This document shows positions 1 to 17,730 of a stretch of DNA of 46,972 bases, piece by piece. Position 1 is the first letter of the stretch; each line of letters starts with the position of its first letter. The notes beneath the pieces were generated by a model, which ran no database searches, was not told where the DNA came from, and saw only the letters and a list, made by a program, of their open reading frames with translations. This DNA is from an uncultured bacterium. Its GTDB lineage: Bacteria; Nitrospirota; Thermodesulfovibrionia; Thermodesulfovibrionales; CALJEL01. The stretch covers positions 1 to 46,972 of the forward strand of contig CALJEL010000043.1 in the NCBI GenBank assembly GCA_938074335.1, written 5' to 3'. The position numbers and the translations under genes are program-made.

Positions 1-30
1 CATCATGATACGATATGTAGTAGGCTCCAT
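1..30 (-). CDS. 5' end of an unidentified gene, cut by the window edge
   Basis: Only the first ten codons (MEPTTYRIMM) lie in the window, read leftward from an ATG at 28-30. A strong Shine-Dalgarno sequence, GAGGAGG on the minus strand (about 36-42), sits six bases before the ATG, which supports a real start. Too little protein is present to assign a family. The ribosome-binding site and start codon lie inside one arm of an inverted repeat (23-87), so translation may be controlled by RNA folding. Confidence 0.45.
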   Translation of the reverse strand, partial: MEPTTYRIMM

Positions 31-87
31 TTTAACCTCCTCTTTTCAGTTTTACGAGATTATACTCCTTTGGAGGTTTATGGAGCC
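23..87 (-). promoter_or_regulatory. Inverted repeat that would sequester SD and start codon
   Basis: On the minus-strand transcript, GGCTCCATAAACCTCC (87-72) can pair with GGAGGTTAAAATGGAGCC (40-23). The two arms are nearly perfect complements, apart from a two-base bulge. The downstream arm contains the GGAGG ribosome-binding site and the ATG of the gene that leaves the window at the left edge. The upstream arm also carries CCTCCAAAGGAG, a competing small hairpin. This looks like a translational switch or thermometer-type leader. The function is inferred from pairing only. Confidence 0.4.
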
Positions 88-100
88 TTTTTAGCTTACA

Positions 101-244
101 TTAATCCTCTTTCTCTAAAACCTCCCTTATGAACTCTTTGAACCTCTTTCTGTAGGCAGTGCCCATACATTTAAGTCTTACCTTAAAGGGGTCAATTTTT
201 ACCTGCCCATTTACGGGGCCCCCCTTAATTTTTTTCTTGAATAT
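101..244 (-). pseudogene. Start-less open frame, possible gene remnant
   Basis: Reading leftward, codons stay open from 244 to a TAA at 101-103 and encode a charged peptide ending FKEFIREVLEKED. A TAA at 245-247 closes the frame upstream. The only ATG is internal at 166, leaving 21 residues. The amino-acid pattern looks protein-like rather than random, with regular Lys/Arg/Glu and hydrophobic spacing. I do not recognise it. It may be the 3' remnant of a gene that once preceded the start-only gene at 1-30. Confidence 0.25.
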
Positions 245-287
245 TTAAGCATATTTTGGGATAATGTATATTGGCAAGGAGATAGAT

Positions 288-1316
288 ATGGGACTTACTT
301 ACAGGGATTCAGGTGTGGATATTGAAGAGGCTGACAGGTTTGTCAGACTCATTACACCTATGGCAAAGTCAACCTTCAGGCCAGAGGTACTTTCTGATAT
401 TGGTTCCTTTAATGCCCTTTTTAAACTTGACCTCAAAAGATATAGACAGCCTGTACTTGTCAGCGGTACAGATGGAGTTGGCACAAAGCTGAAAATTGCC
501 TTCATGCTTAATAAACATGATACAGTTGGAATAGACCTTGTCGCCATGTGTGTTAATGACATCCTTACCTGTGGAGCTGAGCCTTTATTTTTTCTGGACT
601 ATATTGCAACTGGGAAGCTATCTTCAGATAAGGCTGTTGATATTATAAAGGGTATAGCAGAAGGATGCCGTGAGGCTGGTTGCTCACTTATAGGTGGTGA
701 GACTGCTGAGATGCCAGGGTTTTATCAGGAAGGAGAATATGACCTTTGTGGTTTTGCAGTTGGAGTTGTTGAGCAGGATGAGATTATTACAGGTAGAGAT
801 ATTAAAAAAGGAGATCTTATTATTGGCATATCCTCAAATGGATTACACAGCAATGGTTATTCCCTCGTAAGACATATCATTACCAGGAGAGAATTGAGTC
901 TATCTCAATATCTTAATGAGATAGGTATGAGCCTCGGAGAGGAATTACTCAGACCAACAAGAATATATGTAAGGGCCTTCAGGGCATTGAAAGAATCAGC
1001 GATAACAGTAAAAGGTATGGCACATATAACAGGTGGTGGCATTACAGGAAACCTGCCCCGTATCTTTCCTGATGATGTATTTGCAGTAATATATAAGGAT
1101 TCCTGGCCTGTGCCTTTTATCTTCAGGTTTCTTCAGAGACTTGGTGAAGTCCCTGAGGATGAGATGTTCAGGACTTTTAATATGGGAATAGGTTATATTA
1201 TTATTGTGCCTGAAGGGCAGGCAGAGGGAGCTATTGGTATCCTCCGGAAGGCGGGTTATACCGCCTATCAGATCGGTATTATTGAGAAGGGTAACAAGGG
1301 GGTAAGTTATGTATAA
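288..1316 (+). CDS. purM: Phosphoribosylformylglycinamidine cyclo-ligase (AIR synthetase)
   Basis: Catalyses the ATP-dependent closure of FGAM to aminoimidazole ribonucleotide in de novo purine synthesis, in the cytoplasm. The 342-residue length fits the family. Seen: SGTDGVGTK at residues 59-67, VNDILTCGAEP at 89-99, then LIGGETAEMPG and the C-terminal half with HITGGG. I chose the ATG at 288 because AAGGAG (276-281) lies seven bases upstream. An ATG at 264 would add eight non-conserved residues and lacks a good ribosome-binding site. The stop overlaps the next gene by eight bases, so the M23 peptidase gene is probably translationally coupled. Confidence 0.97.
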   Translation: MGLTYRDSGVDIEEADRFVRLITPMAKSTFRPEVLSDIGSFNALFKLDLKRYRQPVLVSGTDGVGTKLKIAFMLNKHDTVGIDLVAMCVNDILTCGAEPLFFLDYIATGKLSSDKAVDIIKGIAEGCREAGCSLIGGETAEMPGFYQEGEYDLCGFAVGVVEQDEIITGRDIKKGDLIIGISSNGLHSNGYSLVRHIITRRELSLSQYLNEIGMSLGEELLRPTRIYVRAFRALKESAITVKGMAHITGGGITGNLPRIFPDDVFAVIYKDSWPVPFIFRFLQRLGEVPEDEMFRTFNMGIGYIIIVPEGQAEGAIGILRKAGYTAYQIGIIEKGNKGVSYV

Positions 1317-2145
1317 GTTAAGGATCTTTCTCAAAAAGGTCTTTACTCCTGTTACTGTTATGCTTGTTCCTCATGCAAGAACAAAACCTGTTGCAATAAA
1401 GGTTCCATTTTCAGTAATAGCAATGGCAGTATTTCTCTGGTGTGCTGGAACTATATATGTTATTTCAATTGCAGTAAAGACCTATGAATATTATGACATG
1501 AAAAATAGGCTATCCTATTTTATGAATCAATTCATTGAGCTCAAGTCCACCATATCATCTCTTCAAAAGGCAGAGGCTGAATTCAGAAAGCTCTTTTCAC
1601 TGAAATCAAAAAAGGATGTCCTTGAGGCTGTGGAGATAACTGACACGGGCTCAGTGGATATGGAGGCATTAAGGAAACAGATTGAGGAGACGGTGGAGAC
1701 TGTAACAGAGATCAAAAAATATCTTTCCGAGCAAAGAGACATCTATCGTTCCACACCGCTTGGATGGCCCGTAAGGGGTGTAATAACCTCCGGTTATGGT
1801 GAAAGGACACATCCCAGATATGGAGAGATAGCCTTTCATTCAGGGATAGACATCTCTGTACCCGTTGGCACTGAAGTGAGGTCAACTGCAGATGGTATAG
1901 TTGTCTTTTCAGGCTGGACAGCAGGAAGTGGCTATACAGTTATCATAGAGCACGGTCATGGCTTCACCACCGCCTATGCCCATAATAAGGAGAATCTTGT
2001 AAAGGTGGGTCAGAGGGTAAAGAGAGGAGATGTAATTGCCCTTTCAGGCAATACAGGGATTACCACAGGGCCTCATGTCCATTATGAGGTGTGGAAAAAC
2101 GGGGCTCATGTGAATCCAATATCTTATCTAAAGGAGAGCTATTGA
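1309..2145 (+). CDS. Membrane-anchored M23 (LytM) metallopeptidase
   Basis: A predicted cell-wall endopeptidase or amidase activator. Residues about 33-56 form one membrane segment and 65-145 a helical, coiled-coil-prone linker. The C-terminal LytM domain (about 150-275) has the zinc ligands H177xxxD181 and H258 of HVHYE, plus H225 in AYAH, so the catalytic set is complete. The domain would sit outside the cytoplasmic membrane. The gene overlaps purM by eight bases and the bactofilin gene start by one base (TGATG). M23 peptidases are often encoded beside bactofilins, for example csd1/ccmA in Helicobacter, where they shape peptidoglycan. I infer the same role here. Confidence 0.93.
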   Translation: MYKLRIFLKKVFTPVTVMLVPHARTKPVAIKVPFSVIAMAVFLWCAGTIYVISIAVKTYEYYDMKNRLSYFMNQFIELKSTISSLQKAEAEFRKLFSLKSKKDVLEAVEITDTGSVDMEALRKQIEETVETVTEIKKYLSEQRDIYRSTPLGWPVRGVITSGYGERTHPRYGEIAFHSGIDISVPVGTEVRSTADGIVVFSGWTAGSGYTVIIEHGHGFTTAYAHNKENLVKVGQRVKRGDVIALSGNTGITTGPHVHYEVWKNGAHVNPISYLKESY

Positions 2146-2513
2146 TGTTTACAAAGAAGCAGCAGGGTGTGGAGACTATTATCGGGCCAGATACCCTTTT
2201 TAAGGGTGAACTGAACTCAAAGGGTACTGTAAGGATTGATGGAGCCTTTGAAGGGACTTTGAATGCTGACTGGATAATCATAGGAGAGGCAGGAAGGGTT
2301 AAAGGAGAGATCAATTCTCGTGGAATAGTTATTGGAGGAAGGGTTGAGGGTAACATAAACTCCACAGAGACAATAGAGATAAAGCATAAGGCACAGGTAA
2401 CAGGTGAGATATGCACCCAGAAACTCTCCATCTCAGAGGGAGCGATCTTTGACGGACATTCCTGTATGCAACAGCAGAAGAAAGAAGCTGAAAAACAGAG
2501 GTCAGAAGGATGA
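2145..2513 (+). CDS. Bactofilin (polymer-forming cytoskeletal protein)
   Basis: A 122-residue protein built from the short beta-helical repeats typical of bactofilins (DUF583/pfam04519): successive turns such as LFKGELNSKGTVRIDG, FEGTLNADWIIIGEAG, VKGEINSRGIVIGG and VEGNINSTETIEI. The tails are short: a polar N-terminus and a Lys/Glu-rich C-terminus. Bactofilins form nucleotide-independent filaments on the inner membrane that position cell-wall enzymes. The ATG at 2145 overlaps the stop of the upstream M23 gene and follows AAGGAGAG, so it was preferred over an in-frame upstream ATG at 2091 that lies inside the peptidase gene. The pairing suggests a shape or division module. Confidence 0.93.
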   Translation: MFTKKQQGVETIIGPDTLFKGELNSKGTVRIDGAFEGTLNADWIIIGEAGRVKGEINSRGIVIGGRVEGNINSTETIEIKHKAQVTGEICTQKLSISEGAIFDGHSCMQQQKKEAEKQRSEG

Positions 2514-2554
2514 AGTTTAAATGTGCCTTTGCCACTGATCTCCTCTGATACCCC

Positions 2555-4531
2555 ATGCGAGAAAGGATATACAGGACAAATCTTTCTCTTTCTGATGCAG
2601 AGGAACTCTGGTTTAAGGCCCTGAGGGAGAAGGTTTTCCCACATCTCTGTCCCCTTCCAGAAGAAAAGATAGATACCGCCATCTCAAAAGGAAGGATTAC
2701 CTCAAGACCTGTGTGGGCAAGGATAAGTTCTCCATTCTTTCATTCCTCAGCAGTTGATGGTTATTGCCTGAGATTTGCTGATTCTGTTACTGCCTCTGAA
2801 AGAAATCCAGTCTATATACAGATTGGTAAGGATTGTTTCAGGGTTGATACAGGTGACCCCATTCCGCCTGATATGAATGCAGTGGTTATGATAGAGGATG
2901 TAAATGTTGTCAATAAAGATGGTAAGGAATTTATAGAAATAAGAGAGGCACTTACACCCTGGCAGAATGTGAGGATCGCTGGAGAGGATATCGTACAGGG
3001 TGAATTAATAATCTCAGAAAACGAAAGAATAACTGCCTTTCATGTGGGTGCAATGCTCGCCTCACAGAACAGGGAGATCTGGGTAAGAAAAAAACCGACT
3101 GTCCTTATCGTCCCAACAGGCACCGAGATAGTGGAGCCTGGTTCAGAACTTAAACCCGGAGATATCATTGAATTTAATTCAAGGTTTCTTGGTGGTCTTA
3201 TAGAAGAGACAGGCGCTGAGGTTAAGCGCTATGATATCGTCCCTGATGATAGGGATATCCTCAGGAAGACAATTCTGAAAAATATTCCAGATGTGGAAGT
3301 TCTTCTCCTTATAGGTGGTTCCTCCCTTGGAAGAGAAGACTTTGTTGAAGATGTGGTTGCCGAAATTGGAGAGGTGATACTCCATGGAGTAAATATAAAA
3401 CCAGGTAAACCTGTTTTACTCGGTATTGTTCAGAATAAACCTGTAATCGGCATTCCTGGATATCCTGTCTCTGCCTTTATAGCCTTTGAGCTTTTTGTAA
3501 GGCCTTTGCTTTATAGGCTTCAGTCCATGGAACCACCAGAGAGAGAGGAGATAGAGGCGATCCTTTCAAGAAACATTGCCTCCCCACTTGGCCTTGAAGA
3601 ATTTATAAGGGTCAAGATAGGTTCTGTCTCAGGTAAGTATATAGCCACCCCTCTTGCAAGGGGAGCCGGGTTGATGATGTCCCTTGTCAGGGCAGACGGT
3701 ATCCTTCAGATACCAGCAGGCAGTGAGGGTGTAGAGGCAGGTTCAAGGATAATGGTAAGGCTTTTCAGGGATAAAAAGGAACTTTTAAATACCATTGTAT
3801 TTATAGGCAGTCATGATAATACTATTGACCTTCTTCACAATTTTCTTAAGAGACATTATCCCTCCTTGAGTCTTTCTTCTGCAAATGTTGGTTCAATGGG
3901 TGGGCTCATTGCCCTCAGAAGAAGGGAATGCCATATAGCAGGTACACATCTTCTTGATGAGGAGACAGGTGAATATAATATCCCCTATGTGAAGAGACTT
4001 CTTCAGGGAGAATCCCTGGTCATGGTCAATCTTGTATACAGGCAGCAGGGACTGATTGTTAAAAAAGGTAATCCAAAGGTAATAAAGGGCTTTGAAGACC
4101 TTACAAGGGATGATGTGCTTTTTGTTAACAGGCAGAGGGGTTCAGGCACAAGGCTCCTTCTTGATAAACACCTCAGAGAACTCGGAATTGATCCTTCGCA
4201 GATAAAAGGTTATGAAGTGGAGGATTTTACCCACATGGCTGTTGCATCAAAGGTTGCTACAGGAGTGGCGGATGTAGCACTTGGCATATATTCAGCGGCA
4301 AGGGCACTGGATCTGGACTTTATCCCTGTGGCAGAGGAGAGATACGATCTTGTCATACTTCAGGAGTCCTTAAGCCTTCCAATGGTGGAGGCACTTCTCA
4401 ATATCATAAAAAATAATCAGGAATTTAAAAAGGCGGTTCAATCCCTTGGAGGATATGATACAAGGGATATGGGTAAGGTTATCATGCAAACTCTTCCCTT
4501 GAAAGGTCTTTCAGGGTCGGTAGCTCTGTAA
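2555..4531 (+). CDS. moeA: MoeA molybdopterin molybdenumtransferase fused to a PBP-like domain
   Basis: Residues 1 to about 405 are MoeA, which inserts molybdate (or tungstate) into adenylylated molybdopterin. Seen: SAVDGYCLR near residue 67, VPTGTEIVEPG, IGGSSLGRED, HGVNIKPGKPVLLG and GIPGYPVSAFIAFELF. From about 410 to 658 there is a periplasmic-binding-protein-like domain (pfam12727 type): FIGSHDNTIDLL, GSMGGLIALRRRECHIAG, NRQRGSGTRLLLD and VADVALGIYSAA. The fusion is known in archaea and anaerobic bacteria, where the second domain is thought to bind molybdate or tungstate. The 3' end runs 50 bases into the convergent scpB gene. No other cofactor gene is adjacent. Confidence 0.93.
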   Translation: MRERIYRTNLSLSDAEELWFKALREKVFPHLCPLPEEKIDTAISKGRITSRPVWARISSPFFHSSAVDGYCLRFADSVTASERNPVYIQIGKDCFRVDTGDPIPPDMNAVVMIEDVNVVNKDGKEFIEIREALTPWQNVRIAGEDIVQGELIISENERITAFHVGAMLASQNREIWVRKKPTVLIVPTGTEIVEPGSELKPGDIIEFNSRFLGGLIEETGAEVKRYDIVPDDRDILRKTILKNIPDVEVLLLIGGSSLGREDFVEDVVAEIGEVILHGVNIKPGKPVLLGIVQNKPVIGIPGYPVSAFIAFELFVRPLLYRLQSMEPPEREEIEAILSRNIASPLGLEEFIRVKIGSVSGKYIATPLARGAGLMMSLVRADGILQIPAGSEGVEAGSRIMVRLFRDKKELLNTIVFIGSHDNTIDLLHNFLKRHYPSLSLSSANVGSMGGLIALRRRECHIAGTHLLDEETGEYNIPYVKRLLQGESLVMVNLVYRQQGLIVKKGNPKVIKGFEDLTRDDVLFVNRQRGSGTRLLLDKHLRELGIDPSQIKGYEVEDFTHMAVASKVATGVADVALGIYSAARALDLDFIPVAEERYDLVILQESLSLPMVEALLNIIKNNQEFKKAVQSLGGYDTRDMGKVIMQTLPLKGLSGSVAL

Positions 4532-5012
4532 GGTCCTTGAGGCCAAAATATTCAAGGAATTCCTTTGTTGTTCCGTATAGAAAGGGTCTTCCTGGTGCCT
4601 CTTTCTTACCTACTATCCTGATAAGTCTTTTTTCAAGGAGTGTCTTTATTGCGCCATCGGAATTTACTCCTCTTATCTCATCTATCTCTGCCTTTATAAT
4701 GGGCTGTTTATAGGCTATTATGGCAAGGGTCTCAAGGGCAGCCATTGATAACCTTGTCTGGCTAACTGTCCTTTTGACCTTTTTAACCCATTCAGCATAT
4801 TGAGGGTTTGTAATCATCTGATAGCCACCTGCTATCTCTTTTATTATTACGCCCCCATTTCTTACATCATACTCCATGATTAATTCATCAAGGAGGGCTT
4901 TTATCTCCTCTTCAGGATATCCTGTTATCTCCTTCATGGAGGAGATGCTGAGGGGTTCTCCTGAGGCGAAGATCAGTAATTCAAGTATGTCTTTTTTCTC
5001 TTTGTTATCCAT
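4482..5012 (-). CDS. scpB: Segregation and condensation protein B
   Basis: ScpB joins ScpA and SMC in the bacterial condensin complex. The 176-residue length and two winged-helix domains fit the family; ETLAIIAYKQPIIKAEIDEI, RGVNSDGAIKTLLEKRLIRI and GRPFLYGTTKEFLEYFGL are the usual signature stretches. It stands alone: no scpA lies upstream, and repeat A begins about 50 bases before its start. There is no clear Shine-Dalgarno before the ATG. An AT-rich TATATT about 9-15 bases upstream hints at a very short leader. The 3' end overlaps moeA by 50 bases, so the two genes converge. Confidence 0.93.
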   Translation of the reverse strand: MDNKEKKDILELLIFASGEPLSISSMKEITGYPEEEIKALLDELIMEYDVRNGGVIIKEIAGGYQMITNPQYAEWVKKVKRTVSQTRLSMAALETLAIIAYKQPIIKAEIDEIRGVNSDGAIKTLLEKRLIRIVGKKEAPGRPFLYGTTKEFLEYFGLKDLTELPTLKDLSREEFA

Positions 5013-5063
5013 GAAAAATAATATAACATACAGCGGCAGCGAAGTAACAGTCTCAAGTTCAAT

Positions 5064-5342
5064 CCCTATTTTGCCGATACCCTACTGGCAGGCTGCCTCA
5101 AAGTAGTGCTACAGTGCGACAGCACACCTGACGGTGAAGTGAGTTAGGGATTAGTGAATTAGTGAATTAGTGAATTAGTGAATTAGAAAATACTAACTCA
5201 CTAACTCACTAACTCACTTGCATACTAACTCACTACTTTAACTCACTTGCATACTAACTCACTACTTTAGCTCTGTCGCACTACTAAGGTGTCGCTATAA
5301 AGGCCTTTTGGCATACTGCATTACTCTCTCAGCAGTTTAGGG
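5064..5342. repeat. Dispersed hairpin repeat, copy A
   Basis: Fills the gap between scpB and gltX. The left end is CCCTATTTTGCCGATACC, and the right end (read inverted) is CCCTAAACTGCTGAGAGAG. The 5' arm contains repeated TTAGTGAA units (5139-5186) and the 3' arm contains ACTAACTC/CTAACTCAC units (5189-5266). The two arms are complementary and would form one long hairpin. The left 55 bases recur inverted at 32640-32693. A 57-base stretch (5111-5167) recurs identically at 46103-46159. The right 65 bases match copy C. No open frame runs through it. Confidence 0.75.
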
Positions 5343-5394
5343 GTTATCCTTATCACTTGCCCGTTAAGTTAGCAATCTGCTATATTCAATAACT

Positions 5395-6804
5395 ATGAGT
5401 TCAAAGGTAAGGGTAAGATTTGCTCCAAGTCCTACAGGTCATCTTCATATTGGTGGTGCACGGACAGCACTCTTTAACTGGCTCTTTGCCAGACACAATA
5501 AGGGTGTTTTTATCCTGAGGATCGAGGATACAGACAGAAGCCGTTCAACAGAGGAATATATTGAGGCTATTATTGAGGGAATGAAGTGGCTCGGGCTTGA
5601 CTGGGACGAGGGACCATACAGGCAGACAGACAGGCTTGAGATTTATAAGAGTTATGTCAATAAACTTTTAAAGGAGAACAAGGCCTATTATTGCTATTGC
5701 TCACCTGAGGAGCTTGAGGAAAGAAGGCGGCTTGCCCTTGCACAGGGAAAGCCCCCAAAGTATGATGGCCGCTGCAGAGAACTTAAAGAACCGGTTCCCG
5801 GAAGGATCCCTGCTGTCAGGTTCAAGATGCCGCAGGCCGGTACTACAGTAGTGGATGATCTTATAAGGGGAAGGGTTAGCTTTGATAATGAGCAGCTTGA
5901 TGATTTTATAATAATGCGTTCAGATGGCACTCCCACATATAATTTCTGCGTGGTGGTGGATGATGTTGATATGCGGATAACCCATGTAATAAGGGGTGAT
6001 GACCATCTTAATAACACACCAAAGCAGATACAGATATACAGGGCCTTGAATTATGAGATACCTCAGTTTGCTCATCTGCCCATGATACTCGGGGCAGATA
6101 AAACAAGGCTCAGCAAGCGTCATGGTGCAACCTCTGTTATGGCCTATAAGGAGATGGGTTATCTTCCCGAGGCCTTACTGAATTATCTTGTCAGGCTTGG
6201 CTGGTCTTATAAGGATCAGGAGATATTCTCAAAGGAAGAGTTGATTGAGAAGTTTAGCCTTGAAAATATCGGTAAGTCTGCTGCTGTCTTTAATCCTGAA
6301 AAACTTCTCTGGCTTAACAGCCATTACATAAATGCCTCTACACCTGAAAGACTCTATGAGCTTGTAAGGCCCTTTCTTATAAAGGAAGGTATTATAAAAG
6401 AAGATACAGAGATAGATATACAGTGGATATCAAAGGCAATTGCCACACTAAAGGAAAGGTCAAGGACACTTGTAGAGCTTGCAAATTCCCTCAGATATTA
6501 CATCATTGATGATATAGAGATTGATGAGGAGGCAAAAGAGAAGTTTATAAATGAAAAAACAATTGGTTATCTAAGACGGGTGAGGGAGCTTCTTTCTGGC
6601 ATGGATGGTTTTGAAAGTAAAACCCTTGAAGAGGCATTCAAAAAACTTATCAGTGAATTAGGAGTAAAGCTTTCAGAGGTTGCCCAGCCGTTGAGGGTAG
6701 CAATCACAGGAAAAACAGTGAGCCCTCCAATATTTGATGTGCTTTCAGTAATCGGTAAGGAAAGGACACTCAGGCGTCTTGACAGGGTCATAAAGACTTT
6801 ATAG
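5395..6804 (+). CDS. gltX: Glutamyl-tRNA synthetase
   Basis: A class I aminoacyl-tRNA synthetase that charges tRNA-Glu (or both tRNA-Glu and tRNA-Gln in organisms using the amidotransferase route). The 469-residue length is normal. The HIGH motif is HLHIG at residues 16-20 and the KMSKS-type motif is RLSKRHG at 238-244. A zinc-site pattern, C100-x-C102 with Y123 and C127, matches the E. coli Cys-x-Cys...Tyr-x3-Cys arrangement. The C-terminal helical anticodon-binding region follows. gpsA starts two bases after the stop, so the genes are probably co-transcribed. Confidence 0.97.
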
Positions 6805-13351: not shown

Positions 13352-14020
13352 ATGAAGTCAAGGACACCTACAGAGAATGAACGGATTGATGAGGCCCTTG
13401 AACTCATCTGGTTATTGAGGGAGGAGGGGAGGGCATTTCTGTCTAATTTTAAAGTAAGCTCTGATGATGAATATCCTGAAGAGATAATTAGATTGCTCAT
13501 TGAGGATGGGCTGGTAAATATAAAAGGTGAAGAAATTGATTTTACAGAAAGGGGTTATGAAAGGGCAAGGGGTCTTATAAGAAGATACAGGCTTGCTGAG
13601 AGGCTTTTTTCAGATGTCTTTGAATTGCGAGAGGACCTTATTAAGGATGATGCCTGCAGGGTTGAACATATATTGAGCAATGAGTTAACTGACAGCGTCT
13701 GCACATTTCTCGGTCACCCACCCACATGTCCTCATGGAAAGCCAATCCCGAGGGGTGAGTGTTGTAAAAAATATCGTGTTGATGTGGAGCCACTGATAAC
13801 AAGGCTTTCCAGTATTGAACCTGGCACAGATGTGAAGATCGTCTTCATAGTACCTTCTCAGAAAAGCAGTGTGGTAAAACTGTCATCCATGGGAATAATA
13901 CCAGGTGTGAGGATAAGGCTCCTTCAGAAAAAACCGACCATTATACTACAGGTTGAAGAGACTGTTATAGCGATTGATCCTGAGATTGCTGATGAGATAC
14001 TTGTAAGGAAGGTTGCCTGA
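13352..14020 (+). CDS. DtxR/MntR-family metalloregulator with FeoA-like domain
   Basis: A 222-residue metal-dependent transcription regulator. Residues 1 to about 75 fit a winged-helix DNA-binding domain. The dimerisation/metal domain has C102-x2-E105-H106 in DACRVEHILSNELTD, the DtxR/IdeR ligand triad at the same numbering. The CPHGKPIP block is the usual family motif. From about 145 an SH3-like FeoA domain follows (SSMGIIPGVRIRLL). It probably senses Fe(II) or Mn(II). No iron-uptake gene lies nearby. Its last 56 bases overlap the 3' end of the opposing histidine-kinase gene. Confidence 0.87.
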   Translation: MKSRTPTENERIDEALELIWLLREEGRAFLSNFKVSSDDEYPEEIIRLLIEDGLVNIKGEEIDFTERGYERARGLIRRYRLAERLFSDVFELREDLIKDDACRVEHILSNELTDSVCTFLGHPPTCPHGKPIPRGECCKKYRVDVEPLITRLSSIEPGTDVKIVFIVPSQKSSVVKLSSMGIIPGVRIRLLQKKPTIILQVEETVIAIDPEIADEILVRKVA

Positions 14021-15935
14021 CCGGTAAAATTATTCTAAATCTTGTTCCCTTATTTACTTCACTATGGACCTCTATCTTTCCCTTATGACCCTCTATGATC
14101 CTGTAGCTTATTGAGAGGCCAAGTCCTGTCCCTTTTTCCTTCTTTGTGGTGAAGAATGGTTCAAAGATCCTTGGTAATATATCAGGAGGGATTCCGTGAC
14201 CTGTGTCTTCCACATCTATGTAGATATTATTATTGTCCACTATCCCGGTACGAAGTATGAGGGTACCGCCTTTTTCCATAGCATGTATTGAGTTATTGAT
14301 AAGATTTAAAAATACCTGTTTCAGCTGATTGTGGTCAGCCTGTATAATAGGAACCTGTCCGTATTCTTCTATTACATCTATATTGCTATGTTTAAGTTGA
14401 AGAGAGGCAAGTTTAAGAACCTCACTCAACAGAAGGTTTATGTTCACCTCTGCAATATTAATTGCCCTTTTCCTTGCAAATTCAAGAAGCTGATTTACAA
14501 TTTCCTTTGCCCTGAGGGATTCCTGTTCTATTATCTTCAAGTCCTTTTTAATGGTTTCAATATCTGCTTCTTCCTGCGAAAGTTCAGAAAATCCTATGAT
14601 GCTTGTAAGGGGATTGTTCAGTTCATGGGCAATATTTGAGGCCATCTCTCCGAGGGCAGCAAGTTTTGCAGCCTGTATGAGCTGCTCCTGTGTCTGCTGG
14701 AGCTCCCGCATTCTGTTTTTGAGGTCTTCCATAAGTTTTACATTCATAAAGGAGACAGAGATCAGATTTGAAAGTATGGCTGCTATACTTAAATCTGTAT
14801 CATCAAAAAATCCATTTTTTTTGTTCATCACCATCATAAGGCCTGATAGCTTTTCCTGTTCCTTTATCCAGATTAAAAGTGATGGTTCATTCATATTGTC
14901 AAAAAAGCTGGTCCTGATAGAAGGAGCAGATCCCGGGGTGAATATAGCTGGTTCTTTCCTGTAATACAGGTAAAGGGCCTCTATCTCTTTTTCGGGTATC
15001 ACTATTCCTTTACCTGCGATATCAATGAACCTTTCATTATCTCTGATAAATATCCTGCAGTCAGCTGCATCAAAGAGTTCCTTTACAACACCGATAAACT
15101 CATTATAGGGCATACCTTCCTCTGAAAGGGAATACAGGGGCATGGTTGCCCTGTAAAGGTTTGAGAGTCTCTTTGTGAATCCTAAAAGTTCATCATGGTT
15201 TTTCTTAAGGGTGATACTCATGTCATTAAAGGCCTCTGAAAGGTCTCTGAATTCATCCCTGTAAGAATAGGAGGCCGTTACACCGAGTTTTCCTGCTTTA
15301 AGTTCCTTCGTGGCATTTATGAGTATACCCAGGGATTTTGTTATCTGTTTTGTAAAGATTATGGCTACAGTAAGTGCAGCAAAAAAGGCAGAAGAGAGGG
15401 TTAAAAATAATATAATCTTGGAATTATTTATATCCTTCAATGCCTTTACTGTTTTTGCATAGAGTCTCTGGTCTGCAGTAAAGGCCATCTCCTGGACCAT
15501 GCTTAAAAGGGTATTGCCGAGGGTTATAGCAACGAGCCTCAATCTCTCTATCCTCTCTCTATTGGCTGTGGTGGTAATCAGGGCGCTCAGGGCATCCTTA
15601 TACTGTTCCACCATATCACTTACACGATTTAACTTTTCTGTCAGGTCTTTACTGTGATGGCAGGACTTACAGCTCTGGACTGACCTGTCAAGGTCAGAGA
15701 CATGTTCAACTATTACATCAACCTCACTTCCAAAGGCTGTTCCTATAGTATATAAGTGTGTCTGGACTGTCTGGGTATTTATAACAAGGTTCTGTCTTAT
15801 GATCTCAACCCTGTGTAGACTGATAACAGTCTCAAGATCTGTTGTGGTTTTGTAGATATAGTAGATTGTAATTCCAACTCCTGTGCTGAAGAGCAGGAAT
15901 AAAAGTGCGAGGGATATAATAAGTCTCTTTTTCAT
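13965..15935 (-). CDS. Sensor histidine kinase with CxxCH motif, HAMP and GAF-like domains
   Basis: A 656-residue membrane sensor. TM1 is about residues 5-27 and a periplasmic region spans 28-170 with C89KSC92H93, a single c-type heme motif. TM2 is about 172-194 and HAMP about 195-250. A GAF-like region covers 270-400. HisKA has GEMASNIAHELNNP (phospho-acceptor H437) and HATPase has VEDTGHGIP and GTGLGLSIS. No response regulator is adjacent. It is the last gene of a minus-strand operon behind two solute-binding proteins (four-base overlap), which suggests that ligand-loaded binding proteins feed it. The heme could make it a redox or gas sensor. Confidence 0.9.
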   Translation of the reverse strand: MKKRLIISLALLFLLFSTGVGITIYYIYKTTTDLETVISLHRVEIIRQNLVINTQTVQTHLYTIGTAFGSEVDVIVEHVSDLDRSVQSCKSCHHSKDLTEKLNRVSDMVEQYKDALSALITTTANRERIERLRLVAITLGNTLLSMVQEMAFTADQRLYAKTVKALKDINNSKIILFLTLSSAFFAALTVAIIFTKQITKSLGILINATKELKAGKLGVTASYSYRDEFRDLSEAFNDMSITLKKNHDELLGFTKRLSNLYRATMPLYSLSEEGMPYNEFIGVVKELFDAADCRIFIRDNERFIDIAGKGIVIPEKEIEALYLYYRKEPAIFTPGSAPSIRTSFFDNMNEPSLLIWIKEQEKLSGLMMVMNKKNGFFDDTDLSIAAILSNLISVSFMNVKLMEDLKNRMRELQQTQEQLIQAAKLAALGEMASNIAHELNNPLTSIIGFSELSQEEADIETIKKDLKIIEQESLRAKEIVNQLLEFARKRAINIAEVNINLLLSEVLKLASLQLKHSNIDVIEEYGQVPIIQADHNQLKQVFLNLINNSIHAMEKGGTLILRTGIVDNNNIYIDVEDTGHGIPPDILPRIFEPFFTTKKEKGTGLGLSISYRIIEGHKGKIEVHSEVNKGTRFRIILPVRQPSLQVSHQQSQDQSL

Positions 15936-16807
15936 CTGTATTTATAAGTCTTTATTTCTATATCAGCTTTTTTTAAAAGATTATAAACAATTGAGAAATC
16001 CTCTTTTGATGCGGCTACGAACCTCAAGGCGCCCAATCTTTCAAGAACCTTTCTACCTTCAGGATCTTTATCCATGTTTAATAAAATATCCTTGATCCTT
16101 TCCTTCAGGCTCCTGTCAAGCTTTTTTGACAGACAGAGAGTAACATCAGGAAGTGCAGTAGATCTTGCTATAATCAAGATCTCCTGTTCCATTACAGGAT
16201 CCTTTTTAAATCTTTCCTTTATGATTTTATTCTTAGCAACACCTATATCTGCCTTTCCATCAAGGACACTGAGAAGTGCTGAGTCGTGACTCCCTGTAAA
16301 GTAGTATTCTCTGAAATAGCCGAGTGGATTTTTAATTCCATGCTCTTTAAAATAGGCAAGGGCAAAGATGTAGCCAGTAGCAGTTGCCCTGTCCACAAAG
16401 GCAATGGTTTTACCTTTCATATCCTTTATATCCTTTATATTACTGTCTCTTCTGACAAAGATATAACCCTCAGCACTAGATGTCCCATCAGGATTCAGGG
16501 GTCTTACAACTGGCTCAACACCAAGTTTTTCAATAGCAAGGACAGAAGTAAAGGCTCCAAAAAAGGCTCCATCAAGATTTCTTGTTATAAATCTATCTAT
16601 TATGTCGCCATATCTGCTCAGGATAGTGAATCTTGTCTTCATCCCCAGCCTGGATGTAAGATATTCACTAAGTGGTTTGTATCTATCCATCTGTCTGAAG
16701 ATATTCTCCTCAGGAATAAGACCTATAAGGATTTCTTTCTCTGCAGCAAATGAGGCTGTGCTGAAGCAGAGAATTAAGACCGATATTATTAAAAGTAAAA
16801 ATCTCAT
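15932..16807 (-). CDS. PhnD-like periplasmic substrate-binding protein
   Basis: A 291-residue protein with a cleavable signal peptide (RFLLLIISVLILCFSTASFA) and the phosphate/phosphonate-type binding fold (pfam12974): GLIPEENIFRQMDRYKPL, YLTSRLGMKTRF, DGAFFGAFTSVLAIEKLG, KGKTIAFVDRATATGYIFA and GKADIGVAKNKI. In many bacteria such proteins are sensory partners of histidine kinases rather than transport components. No permease or ATPase is nearby, and the next gene is the kinase, so a sensory role is likely. The start shares a base with the end of the upstream binding-protein gene. Confidence 0.88.
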   Translation of the reverse strand: MRFLLLIISVLILCFSTASFAAEKEILIGLIPEENIFRQMDRYKPLSEYLTSRLGMKTRFTILSRYGDIIDRFITRNLDGAFFGAFTSVLAIEKLGVEPVVRPLNPDGTSSAEGYIFVRRDSNIKDIKDMKGKTIAFVDRATATGYIFALAYFKEHGIKNPLGYFREYYFTGSHDSALLSVLDGKADIGVAKNKIIKERFKKDPVMEQEILIIARSTALPDVTLCLSKKLDRSLKERIKDILLNMDKDPEGRKVLERLGALRFVAASKEDFSIVYNLLKKADIEIKTYKYR

Positions 16808-17730
16808 CAGTGTATTACCTCTGTTGCCTCTGTGAGTAGATCAGCGGGAATCCGGAGGCCCATCCTCTGTGCCTCACCGAGATTAAAGATTAATTCCATA
16901 TCTGCACCGGAATCTCTGGCAATCTCATGAGGTTTTTTGCCTTTCAGAACGGCCTGTATAATAGCAGCTGCCTTTTCTGCCTGTTTTTTCGGTGATGGAT
17001 AAAGGCTGATAACAGGTTTTGCATCTCTCCTGGGAAGAAGGGATGCAACAGGTATCCTGTATTCACGGAAGTTTGAAAGGGCAATATTTGCTATGCTGCT
17101 CGTTGTAAAGATAAGGGCATCTACATTGATGTTCTCAAGTACCTGTCTTATGTCAGAGGGTCTCTTTATAATAAGCTTTATGACTGTCATCTTATAAAAG
17201 GGACAGCATCTCATAATCTCATCGAGCTGGTAGAGAGAATCACTTTCAAGGGGATTGTATACAACACCAAGGGTCTTTATCTCCTTCATGCTGTTCAGGT
17301 ATCGTGTGATACTTGAAATAGGGGTTTTGAATTCAACACCGGTGCTATTCTTTGTCCTGTATCTTTCAAGGGCGGGAGTGTACCCTGCCACATATATAAC
17401 AGGCTGGTCAGGTCTTTCCTTTAAAGTAGCGATTGTTGCCTCGGTTCCATAGCAGAAGATTATATCCACATTATGGGCTATGAGTTTCCTTGCAGCATTG
17501 CTCAGGGCAATGGGATCAGGAAAGGGTTTCTGGATTAGAAAATCAATCTGACGTGCTACAATAGTTGCTTCCATCTTTTTAAGAAAATGAGTATGAATTT
17601 CTTCATAATAGGTAACATTGGATGGAAGTATTACACCTATTGTCCTTTTTTCAATGGCATGTGATTCTTTGATAAAAGAAACAAAAGAGATAAGGAGCAG
17701 GATCAATAGCCTGAACTTAAATTGTCTCAT
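16807..17730 (-). CDS. ABC_sub_bind-type (pfam04392-like) periplasmic binding protein
   Basis: A 307-residue exported protein with signal peptide FKFRLLILLLISFVSF. The type-I binding fold shows IGVILPSNVTYYEEIHTHFL, IDFLIQKPFPDP, DIIFCYGTEATIATLK, VIYVAGYTP, LGVVYNPLESDSLYQ and DALIFTTSSIANIALSNF. Such proteins bind amino acids or other small molecules, and the ligand here is unknown. It is the first gene of the three-gene minus operon, with the second binding protein and the kinase following. No transporter genes are linked. Confidence 0.85.
   Translation of the reverse strand: MRQFKFRLLILLLISFVSFIKESHAIEKRTIGVILPSNVTYYEEIHTHFLKKMEATIVARQIDFLIQKPFPDPIALSNAARKLIAHNVDIIFCYGTEATIATLKERPDQPVIYVAGYTPALERYRTKNSTGVEFKTPISSITRYLNSMKEIKTLGVVYNPLESDSLYQLDEIMRCCPFYKMTVIKLIIKRPSDIRQVLENINVDALIFTTSSIANIALSNFREYRIPVASLLPRRDAKPVISLYPSPKKQAEKAAAIIQAVLKGKKPHEIARDSGADMELIFNLGEAQRMGLRIPADLLTEATEVIH

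Follow-up and report, generated by a model that had tools for sequence, protein, structure and literature searches.

An operon of two binding proteins and a histidine kinase with a probable heme-c sensor in an uncultured Nitrospirota bacterium

The operon and its setting

The DNA considered here (the window) is a stretch of 46,972 nucleotides, contig CALJEL010000043.1 of assembly GCA_938074335.1 from an uncultured bacterium of the phylum Nitrospirota (lineage CALJEL01), and the system in question consists of three of its genes, all on the minus strand, that encode two different binding proteins and a membrane histidine kinase. Gene A (16807..17730) specifies a protein of 307 residues that belongs to the PF04392 family (ABC_sub_bind; Pfam E 1.8e-18), gene P (15932..16807) a PhnD-like protein of 291 residues (PF12974; E 3.9e-59), and the third gene (13965..15935) a histidine kinase of 656 residues with HAMP, HisKA and HATPase_c domains in Pfam. 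By the coordinates of the open reading frames (ORFs), the stop of A overlaps the start of P by 1 base (16807..16807), and the stop of P overlaps the start of the kinase gene by 4 bases (15932..15935). These overlaps, together with a gene order conserved in relatives, place the three genes in one operon, as had been proposed in a preliminary description of this DNA; its second claim, one heme-type CxxCH in the periplasmic part of the kinase, is borne out by the translation, in which a single CKSCH heme-c attachment motif (residues 89-93; 15657..15671, minus strand), with His94 next to it, lies between two helices taken as transmembrane (TM). The reading favoured here, at a probability of about 0.55, is that the operon encodes a two-binding-protein heme sensor that works like AioXSR or TorTSR and is tuned to respiratory electron acceptors or donors, with its response regulator encoded elsewhere.

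From the Pfam matches and a structure model, the parts of the kinase follow the order TM1, periplasmic four-helix sensor, TM2, HAMP, GAF-like region (its GAF match in Pfam scores under the cut-off), HisKA and HATPase_c. As for the binding proteins, A begins with a hydrophobic stretch that, judged by eye, is signal-like, and its closest solved chains are 3lkv, 3lft and 6hni; P scores over the NCBIfam cut-off of TIGR01098 and under that of the PhnD family TIGR03431, and its solved relatives are PtxB, AioX, ArrX and PhnD. Further PhnD-like domains occur in the window genome (G000; an assembly of 2.22 Mb in 116 contigs), one of them in an open frame of 951 residues (G000:C24:16951-17658) and two in tandem in a frame of 573 residues (G000:C13:26617-28143).

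No permease, ATPase or response regulator adjoins the operon, in agreement with the preliminary description; the flanking genes tested are unrelated and encode an iron-dependent-repressor/FeoA protein and RNase HII on one side and the YchF GTPase on the other. In the window genome, PF06541, which we take to be the permease partner of PF04392, had 0 matches, and no PhnE scored over its curated cut-off, with 2 weaker matches; a role in transport was rejected because these partner permeases were not found in that genome. Regarding the surroundings, the flanking gene at 13352-14020 encodes the C-terminal domain of an iron-dependent repressor fused to FeoA, and it is convergent with the kinase gene, whose 3' end it overlaps by 56 bases; elsewhere in the window, positions 2555-4531 encode a fusion of MoeA with a PBP_like domain (PF12727).

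A recurrent sensor with a CxxCH motif

Relatives of the sensor were sought with the first 249 residues of the kinase in 295 genomes of the phylum, which were sampled from a larger group and include the window's own genome; 195 of the 295 had a match, many of them in the HAMP part only. The 120 regions with the strongest long matches were taken, of which 119 held a sensor ORF and 118 were aligned: L158 was dropped as it had no such ORF, the 92-residue fragment of L149 was kept out of the alignment and L196, which has stop codons, out of A4, and both L140 (start mis-set) and L155 (no real relative) stayed in the 118 and 119 sets. With L047 (genome G099), whose kinase lies at a contig end, scored as lacking A and P, P stood directly upstream of the sensor in 75 of the 119 loci, and A followed by P in 25. 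In the latter, the gap between A and P was -4 or -1 in 23 loci, and that between P and the kinase was -4 in 20.

The P alignment, run against named genomes, gave 227 loci; among the best 80, A, P and sensor occurred together in 23 and P and sensor in 41 (with the sensor ahead of P in a few), 2 had A and P and no visible sensor, and 14 had P in other settings. These loci overlap the 295-genome set (e.g., L159 with L040, and L161 with L048), and the two sets are therefore not independent. By record title, the 23 A-P-sensor loci were Nitrospirota kin, one being Nitrospira japonica and one Thermodesulfovibrio, and P-sensor loci among the 80 were also found in records titled Deltaproteobacteria, Geobacter, Desulfuromonadales, Spirochaetes, Proteobacteria and Myxococcales. 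Regarding the output, classed by similarity to examples checked in Pfam, the sensor was joined to a kinase in 85 of the 119 loci (5 with a receiver) and to GGDEF-EAL in 31, and was short in 3; for the 64 named sensors of the best 80 loci, the corresponding figures were 38, 21 and 5.

The recurrence of the motif and of the gene order across many genomes indicates that the A-P-kinase arrangement is not due to chance, and the gene-order counts and varied outputs point to a sensor that is a module, with P as its usual partner and A as an addition. The preliminary description had two binding proteins feeding the kinase; both do recur with the sensor, P (75 of 119) as its core partner and A (25 of 119) as an extra. 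The two binding-protein families meet again in L209:5962-12861 (record titled Proteobacteria), where P, an 829-residue heme sensor, a PF04392 protein and a dCache kinase lie in this order on one strand.

It could be argued that this gene order is historical, with the binding proteins serving transporters encoded elsewhere and the kinase sensing by its heme only. Such an explanation would suit the 44 of 119 sensors that have no P directly upstream (5 of them without any upstream gene in the stretch examined), and also the two Pseudomonas aeruginosa kinases which, according to the accessible part of PMC11113362, showed no interaction with the neighbouring binding proteins; it is decidedly improbable when set against the missing PF06541 permease and above-cut-off PhnE of the window genome, the presence of P beside sensors with a GGDEF-EAL output (L202, L183, L236), and the P-sensor pairs, among the best 80 loci, in records from Deltaproteobacteria and Geobacter to Spirochaetes and Myxococcales. 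For the two-binding-protein sensor, the earlier proposal that two ligands feed one kinase gains from an order that is conserved and usually overlapping in 25 further loci; such neighbours are not always linked.

Within the aligned sensors, CxxCH is the most conserved element: C89 is kept in 116, C92 in 117 and H93 in 117 of the 118 sequences, and H94 in 109. In the named genomes, 63 of 64 sensors have CxxCH and 1 has CX3CH, a spacing known from some c-type hemes; the variant was seen as CANACH in L107 and L214 (probably one genome), in a sensor that is otherwise typical. The motif lies in a predicted periplasmic segment, and the window genome has cytochrome c assembly genes (4 PF01578 matches). 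A near-invariant CxxCH with one CX3CH variant makes a covalent c-type heme on the kinase sensor likely. A thiol-disulfide or metal-ion site in place of a heme would agree with the variation of the candidate distal ligands (H41 in 102 and M150 in 100 of the 118), but His93 is as conserved as the cysteines, one relative has the CX3CH form, the assembly genes are present and the motif segment is located between two predicted membrane helices, so that this alternative is very improbable.

Regarding the fold of the sensor, a model of kinase residues 1-260, with 61 sequences, a mean predicted local distance difference test (pLDDT) of 86.8 and a predicted template modelling score (pTM) of 0.56, was all-helical, with helices at residues 2-62, 72-90, 96-121, 126-213 and 228-259. 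The CxxCH site is predicted to occupy the second turn, toward the membrane, at the height of H41-E44-R47 in helix 1 and close to M150 in helix 4, a position derived from helix lengths and boundaries, without coordinates; H41 and M150 are, in this model, candidates for the second heme ligand. The best Foldseek match of the sensor model was NarQ (5jef, E 9.6e-4), followed by Adeh_2942, and the best VIA-align match was LytSN in complex with XylFII (5xsj, Z 16.6), with TorS-TorT (3o1i) at Z 12.6. The sequence profile of the sensor matched solved chains mainly in the TM-HAMP part, and Pfam returned for the sensor alignment only HAMP families, besides three single-member weak matches. The sensor is predicted, on the basis of the model, to be a four-helix bundle of NarQ/TorS type.

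The binding proteins and a probable MtrAB-like conduit

The ligand pocket of P was compared with that of AioX through a phmmer alignment and the pocket list in the accessible part of PMC5908839, with the numbering by hand count. Y66, T142, T144 and H174 of P are like the residues of AioX at these places (Tyr88, Ser161, Ser163 and His192), and G84, A112 and K192 are unlike theirs (Cys106, Tyr131 and Asp210). All 75 P sequences compared have Tyr66, and Thr142 is kept in 70, His174 in 69, Gly84 in 68 and Lys192 in 65; no Cys is among the residues listed for these 75 proteins at the Cys106 place, and 47 of them have Tyr and 6 have Ala at position 112. Judged from its residues at the AioX places, the pocket suits an anion other than arsenite, and arsenite sensing by P was rejected as the pocket cysteine is absent.

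As for A, 7 of the 25 A-P-kinase loci encode it behind a 9-heme protein and a barrel, all on one strand, with Pfam applied to L043 and L061. The 9-heme protein is a multiheme MtrA homologue by its match to chain A of 6r2q (E 3.1e-39; the entry gives this chain another molecule name), and the low-confidence model of the barrel (pLDDT 60) has as its best match chain B of the same entry, 'Structure of the Mtr complex' (E 8.2e-12; the next match has 2.1e-6); PF11854 is over its cut-off in the barrel of L061 and under it in that of L043. At E 1e-40 or better, the 9-heme protein was found in 58 of the 295 genomes with 63 matches, of which 49 were examined for context and 14 left out, 7 of the 49 being preselected for A-P-kinase. 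A stood behind the conduit in 39 of the 49 loci (7 preselected), and was followed by a protein like a methyl-accepting chemotaxis protein (MCP) in 26, by P and the heme sensor in 7 (all preselected), by P alone in 1 and by other genes in 5; by our own reading, 6 of the 10 conduit loci without A stop at a contig edge. Examples of the MCP-like proteins have sCache_3_2, HAMP and MCPsignal in Pfam, and 2 of the 26 also carry a PhnD-like domain.

Two chemoreceptors directly after A, in L329:2-2641 (with sCache, HAMP and MCPsignal) and in L330, have a C-terminal PhnD-like domain, which would be cytoplasmic if the topology is usual. In L322:74-8191, from the window's genus, a second PhnD-like protein (with a cysteine that, by eye, is near the AioX-like place), a PBP_like_2 protein and an MCP are encoded upstream of the conduit; binding proteins and chemoreceptors cluster around the conduit in this locus. 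The window genome has a conduit on its contig C108 (L255; 6.5 kb, positions 1-6474), with a hexaheme protein that has an MtrC/MtrF-domain match, a 9-heme protein with 68% identity to the query, an MtrB-like barrel, an A-type protein (A') and a Cache-HAMP protein. The last, cut by the contig end, is a probable chemoreceptor, and these genes likely form an extracellular electron conduit with its own sensor.

The 9-heme protein was present in 25 of the 26 genomes with a visible A-P-kinase operon and in 33 of the 269 others (Fisher 3e-19, ignoring ancestry). In a tree of A, the conduit-linked proteins that are not of the A-P-kinase kind formed one branch of 32 rows (support 100/100), and those from A-P-kinase operons, conduit-linked or not, fell outside it; it should be noted that the label of the former in the tree, cytA_MCP, covers every conduit A without a following P (24 MCP-like and 5 other in a similarity check). 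The conduit neighbourhoods, the co-occurrence and the tree argue for A as a family of sensing proteins linked with the conduit, the window copy being of the kind that goes with P and the kinase.

P alone may nonetheless be the co-receptor of the kinase, with one soluble ligand and the heme as inputs, and A a bystander that belongs with a chemoreceptor or is an orphan scavenging protein. This possibility, a real one although somewhat unlikely, draws on the 50 loci with P and the sensor without adjacent A, on L058 and L066, which hold P and the kinase without A, and on the 26 of 49 examined conduit loci in which A pairs with MCP-like proteins. Against it, the frames of A and P overlap in 23 of the 25 loci, and the sensor residues special to the A group lean toward the predicted membrane-distal tip: 8 of these 24 residues are at the tip, which takes up 35 of 200 positions within limits set by the analyst (p 0.035, phylogeny ignored). 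F68 occurs in 25 of 25 A-group sensors vs 6% elsewhere, and R131 in 25 of 25 vs 14%. For a sensor with two co-receptors, this lean gives a hint that A may dock at the predicted distal tip.

Proposed function and relation to known systems

In the two-binding-protein reading, the operon would encode a sensor that takes several inputs in the periplasm. Its core co-receptor would be P, an anion binder of the PhnD/PtxB/AioX type, and its kinase would have a NarQ/TorS-like four-helix bundle with one covalent c-type heme; A, from a family otherwise encoded with an MtrAB-like outer-membrane conduit and a chemoreceptor, would act as the second co-receptor. Ligand-loaded P and A may dock on the bundle, the heme may report redox state or a gas, and the combined state of ligands and heme would set the kinase activity through HAMP; the recipient of the phosphoryl group would be a response regulator from another locus, probably one of the NtrC (sigma-54) type that lies beside some relatives. 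The likely purpose would be to match the expression of extracellular or periplasmic respiration to the available electron acceptor or donor. The link to the MtrAB-like conduit and chemoreceptor, the GGDEF-EAL outputs and the regulators beside some relatives go beyond the preliminary description.

Regarding the regulator, the gene directly downstream encodes one of NtrC type in 2 of the 25 A-P-kinase loci, in 16 of the 50 P-kinase loci and in 12 of the 44 others. The window genome has 19 near-full-length NtrC-type matches with 36-45% identity (the best on contig C71, E 9.3e-122), and no single partner among them stood out enough. Sigma-54-like sites, counted at a score of at least 8 with the expectation from mononucleotide shuffles, were 1 vs 1.3 expected upstream of A (of 19) and 6 vs 4.0 upstream of P (of 48); the site counts, including those at the conduit, give no clear support for an NtrC-type target at the conduit, A or P.

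Several points weigh against the favoured reading. Sigma-54-like sites upstream of the 9-heme conduit genes are not clearly enriched (6 vs 2.9 expected, of 49). Helical bundles easily reach high structural scores, and a Z under about 13 may mean little; the candidate axial ligands vary, more than a third of the sensors lack a P gene immediately before them, adjacency of a binding-protein gene to a kinase gene does not guarantee a link between the two, as for the P. aeruginosa pairs, and the window P has Ala112 where 47 of 75 P proteins have the pocket tyrosine. As for the conduit, the barrel model has a pLDDT of 60 and a sequence profile built from 7 barrels found 3efm at E 0.04 and no chain of an Mtr complex; its co-occurrence with the operon is confounded by shared ancestry, 33 conduit genomes have no visible A-P-kinase operon, and one genome (G215) has the operon without the conduit. 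Finally, the window operon is apart from the conduit, and its A is outside the clade of conduit-chemoreceptor A proteins.

A gate for extracellular respiration, rather doubtful, would have a soluble substrate or electron shuttle signalled by A and P and the heme reduced or oxidised by a periplasmic cytochrome pool fed by the MtrAB-like conduit, the kinase firing only with both ligand and electron flow across the outer membrane; if true, the conduit would be part of the sensing chain.

Among known systems, the two-binding-protein sensor resembles in its parts AioXSR, ArrXSR and ArxXSR, which also have a PhnD-like binding protein encoded with a histidine kinase, for sensing and not transport; AioR belongs to the AtoC family (both from the accessible part of PMC5908839). 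P matches the AioX chain with 3.9e-18 and the ArrX chain with 6.1e-17. Unlike systems of this type, the window P has no arsenite cysteine (Gly84) and has Ala112 and Lys192, a heme motif is present in the kinase sensor, the operon includes another binding protein that is unrelated to P, and no regulator is adjacent. TorT-TorS and XylFII-LytS resemble the window system in the helical-bundle sensor, predicted here, and in the binding-protein partner, likely here; they employ other binding-protein families, with one binding protein each and without heme. NarQ and NarX share the layout of four-helix sensor, TM and HAMP, NarQ being also the best Foldseek match, with a sequence match to the window kinase confined to the TM-HAMP part (166-255); in these sensors, nitrate binds the bundle directly, and neither heme nor binding protein is involved.

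As for heme sensors, DcrA of Desulfovibrio is a chemotaxis transducer without a known binding protein. The accessible part of PMC8396549 gives it as the earliest sensor reported to have a periplasmic c-type heme, with redox and oxygen as its signals. The c-type heme sensors of the sCache_heme family (DUF3365/Tll0287, PF11845; including GSU0582 and GSU0935) are Cache folds, whereas the window sensor model is all-helical; membership in PF11845 was rejected on the latter ground and because none of the 61 sensor members matched at E 0.01. The term 'substrate-binding' is absent from the accessible part of the sCache_heme paper (PMC12889525). MtrCAB and PioAB compare with the 9-heme protein and barrel near related A genes through the matches to chains A and B of 6r2q, the barrel by way of its low-confidence model; the difference is that these conduit genes adjoin relatives of A, outside the window operon. 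The accessible part of PMC8805035 has no mention of Nitrospir, histidine kinase, sensor or chemotaxis.

Kinases coupled to binding proteins, sensors built as helical bundles and sensors with a c-type heme are all known separately; in the open-licence literature, with most subscription journals outside its scope, no report was found of the three combined in one system, of two binding-protein families with one such kinase, or of a link to an Mtr-like conduit. To our knowledge, the choice of electron acceptor or donor by Nitrospirota and related subsurface bacteria is poorly known, and the three-gene sensor may be how these little-known bacteria sense what supports their respiration. The family offers a concrete sensor, in which a putative heme-carrying four-helix input is joined to kinases or cyclic-di-GMP enzymes, one or two binding proteins are encoded alongside, and gene order gives a tie to the conduit; such a sensor would take c-type heme sensing beyond the Cache fold and have one receptor served by binding proteins of two different folds, and the ligands of A and P could reveal what the conduit is for.

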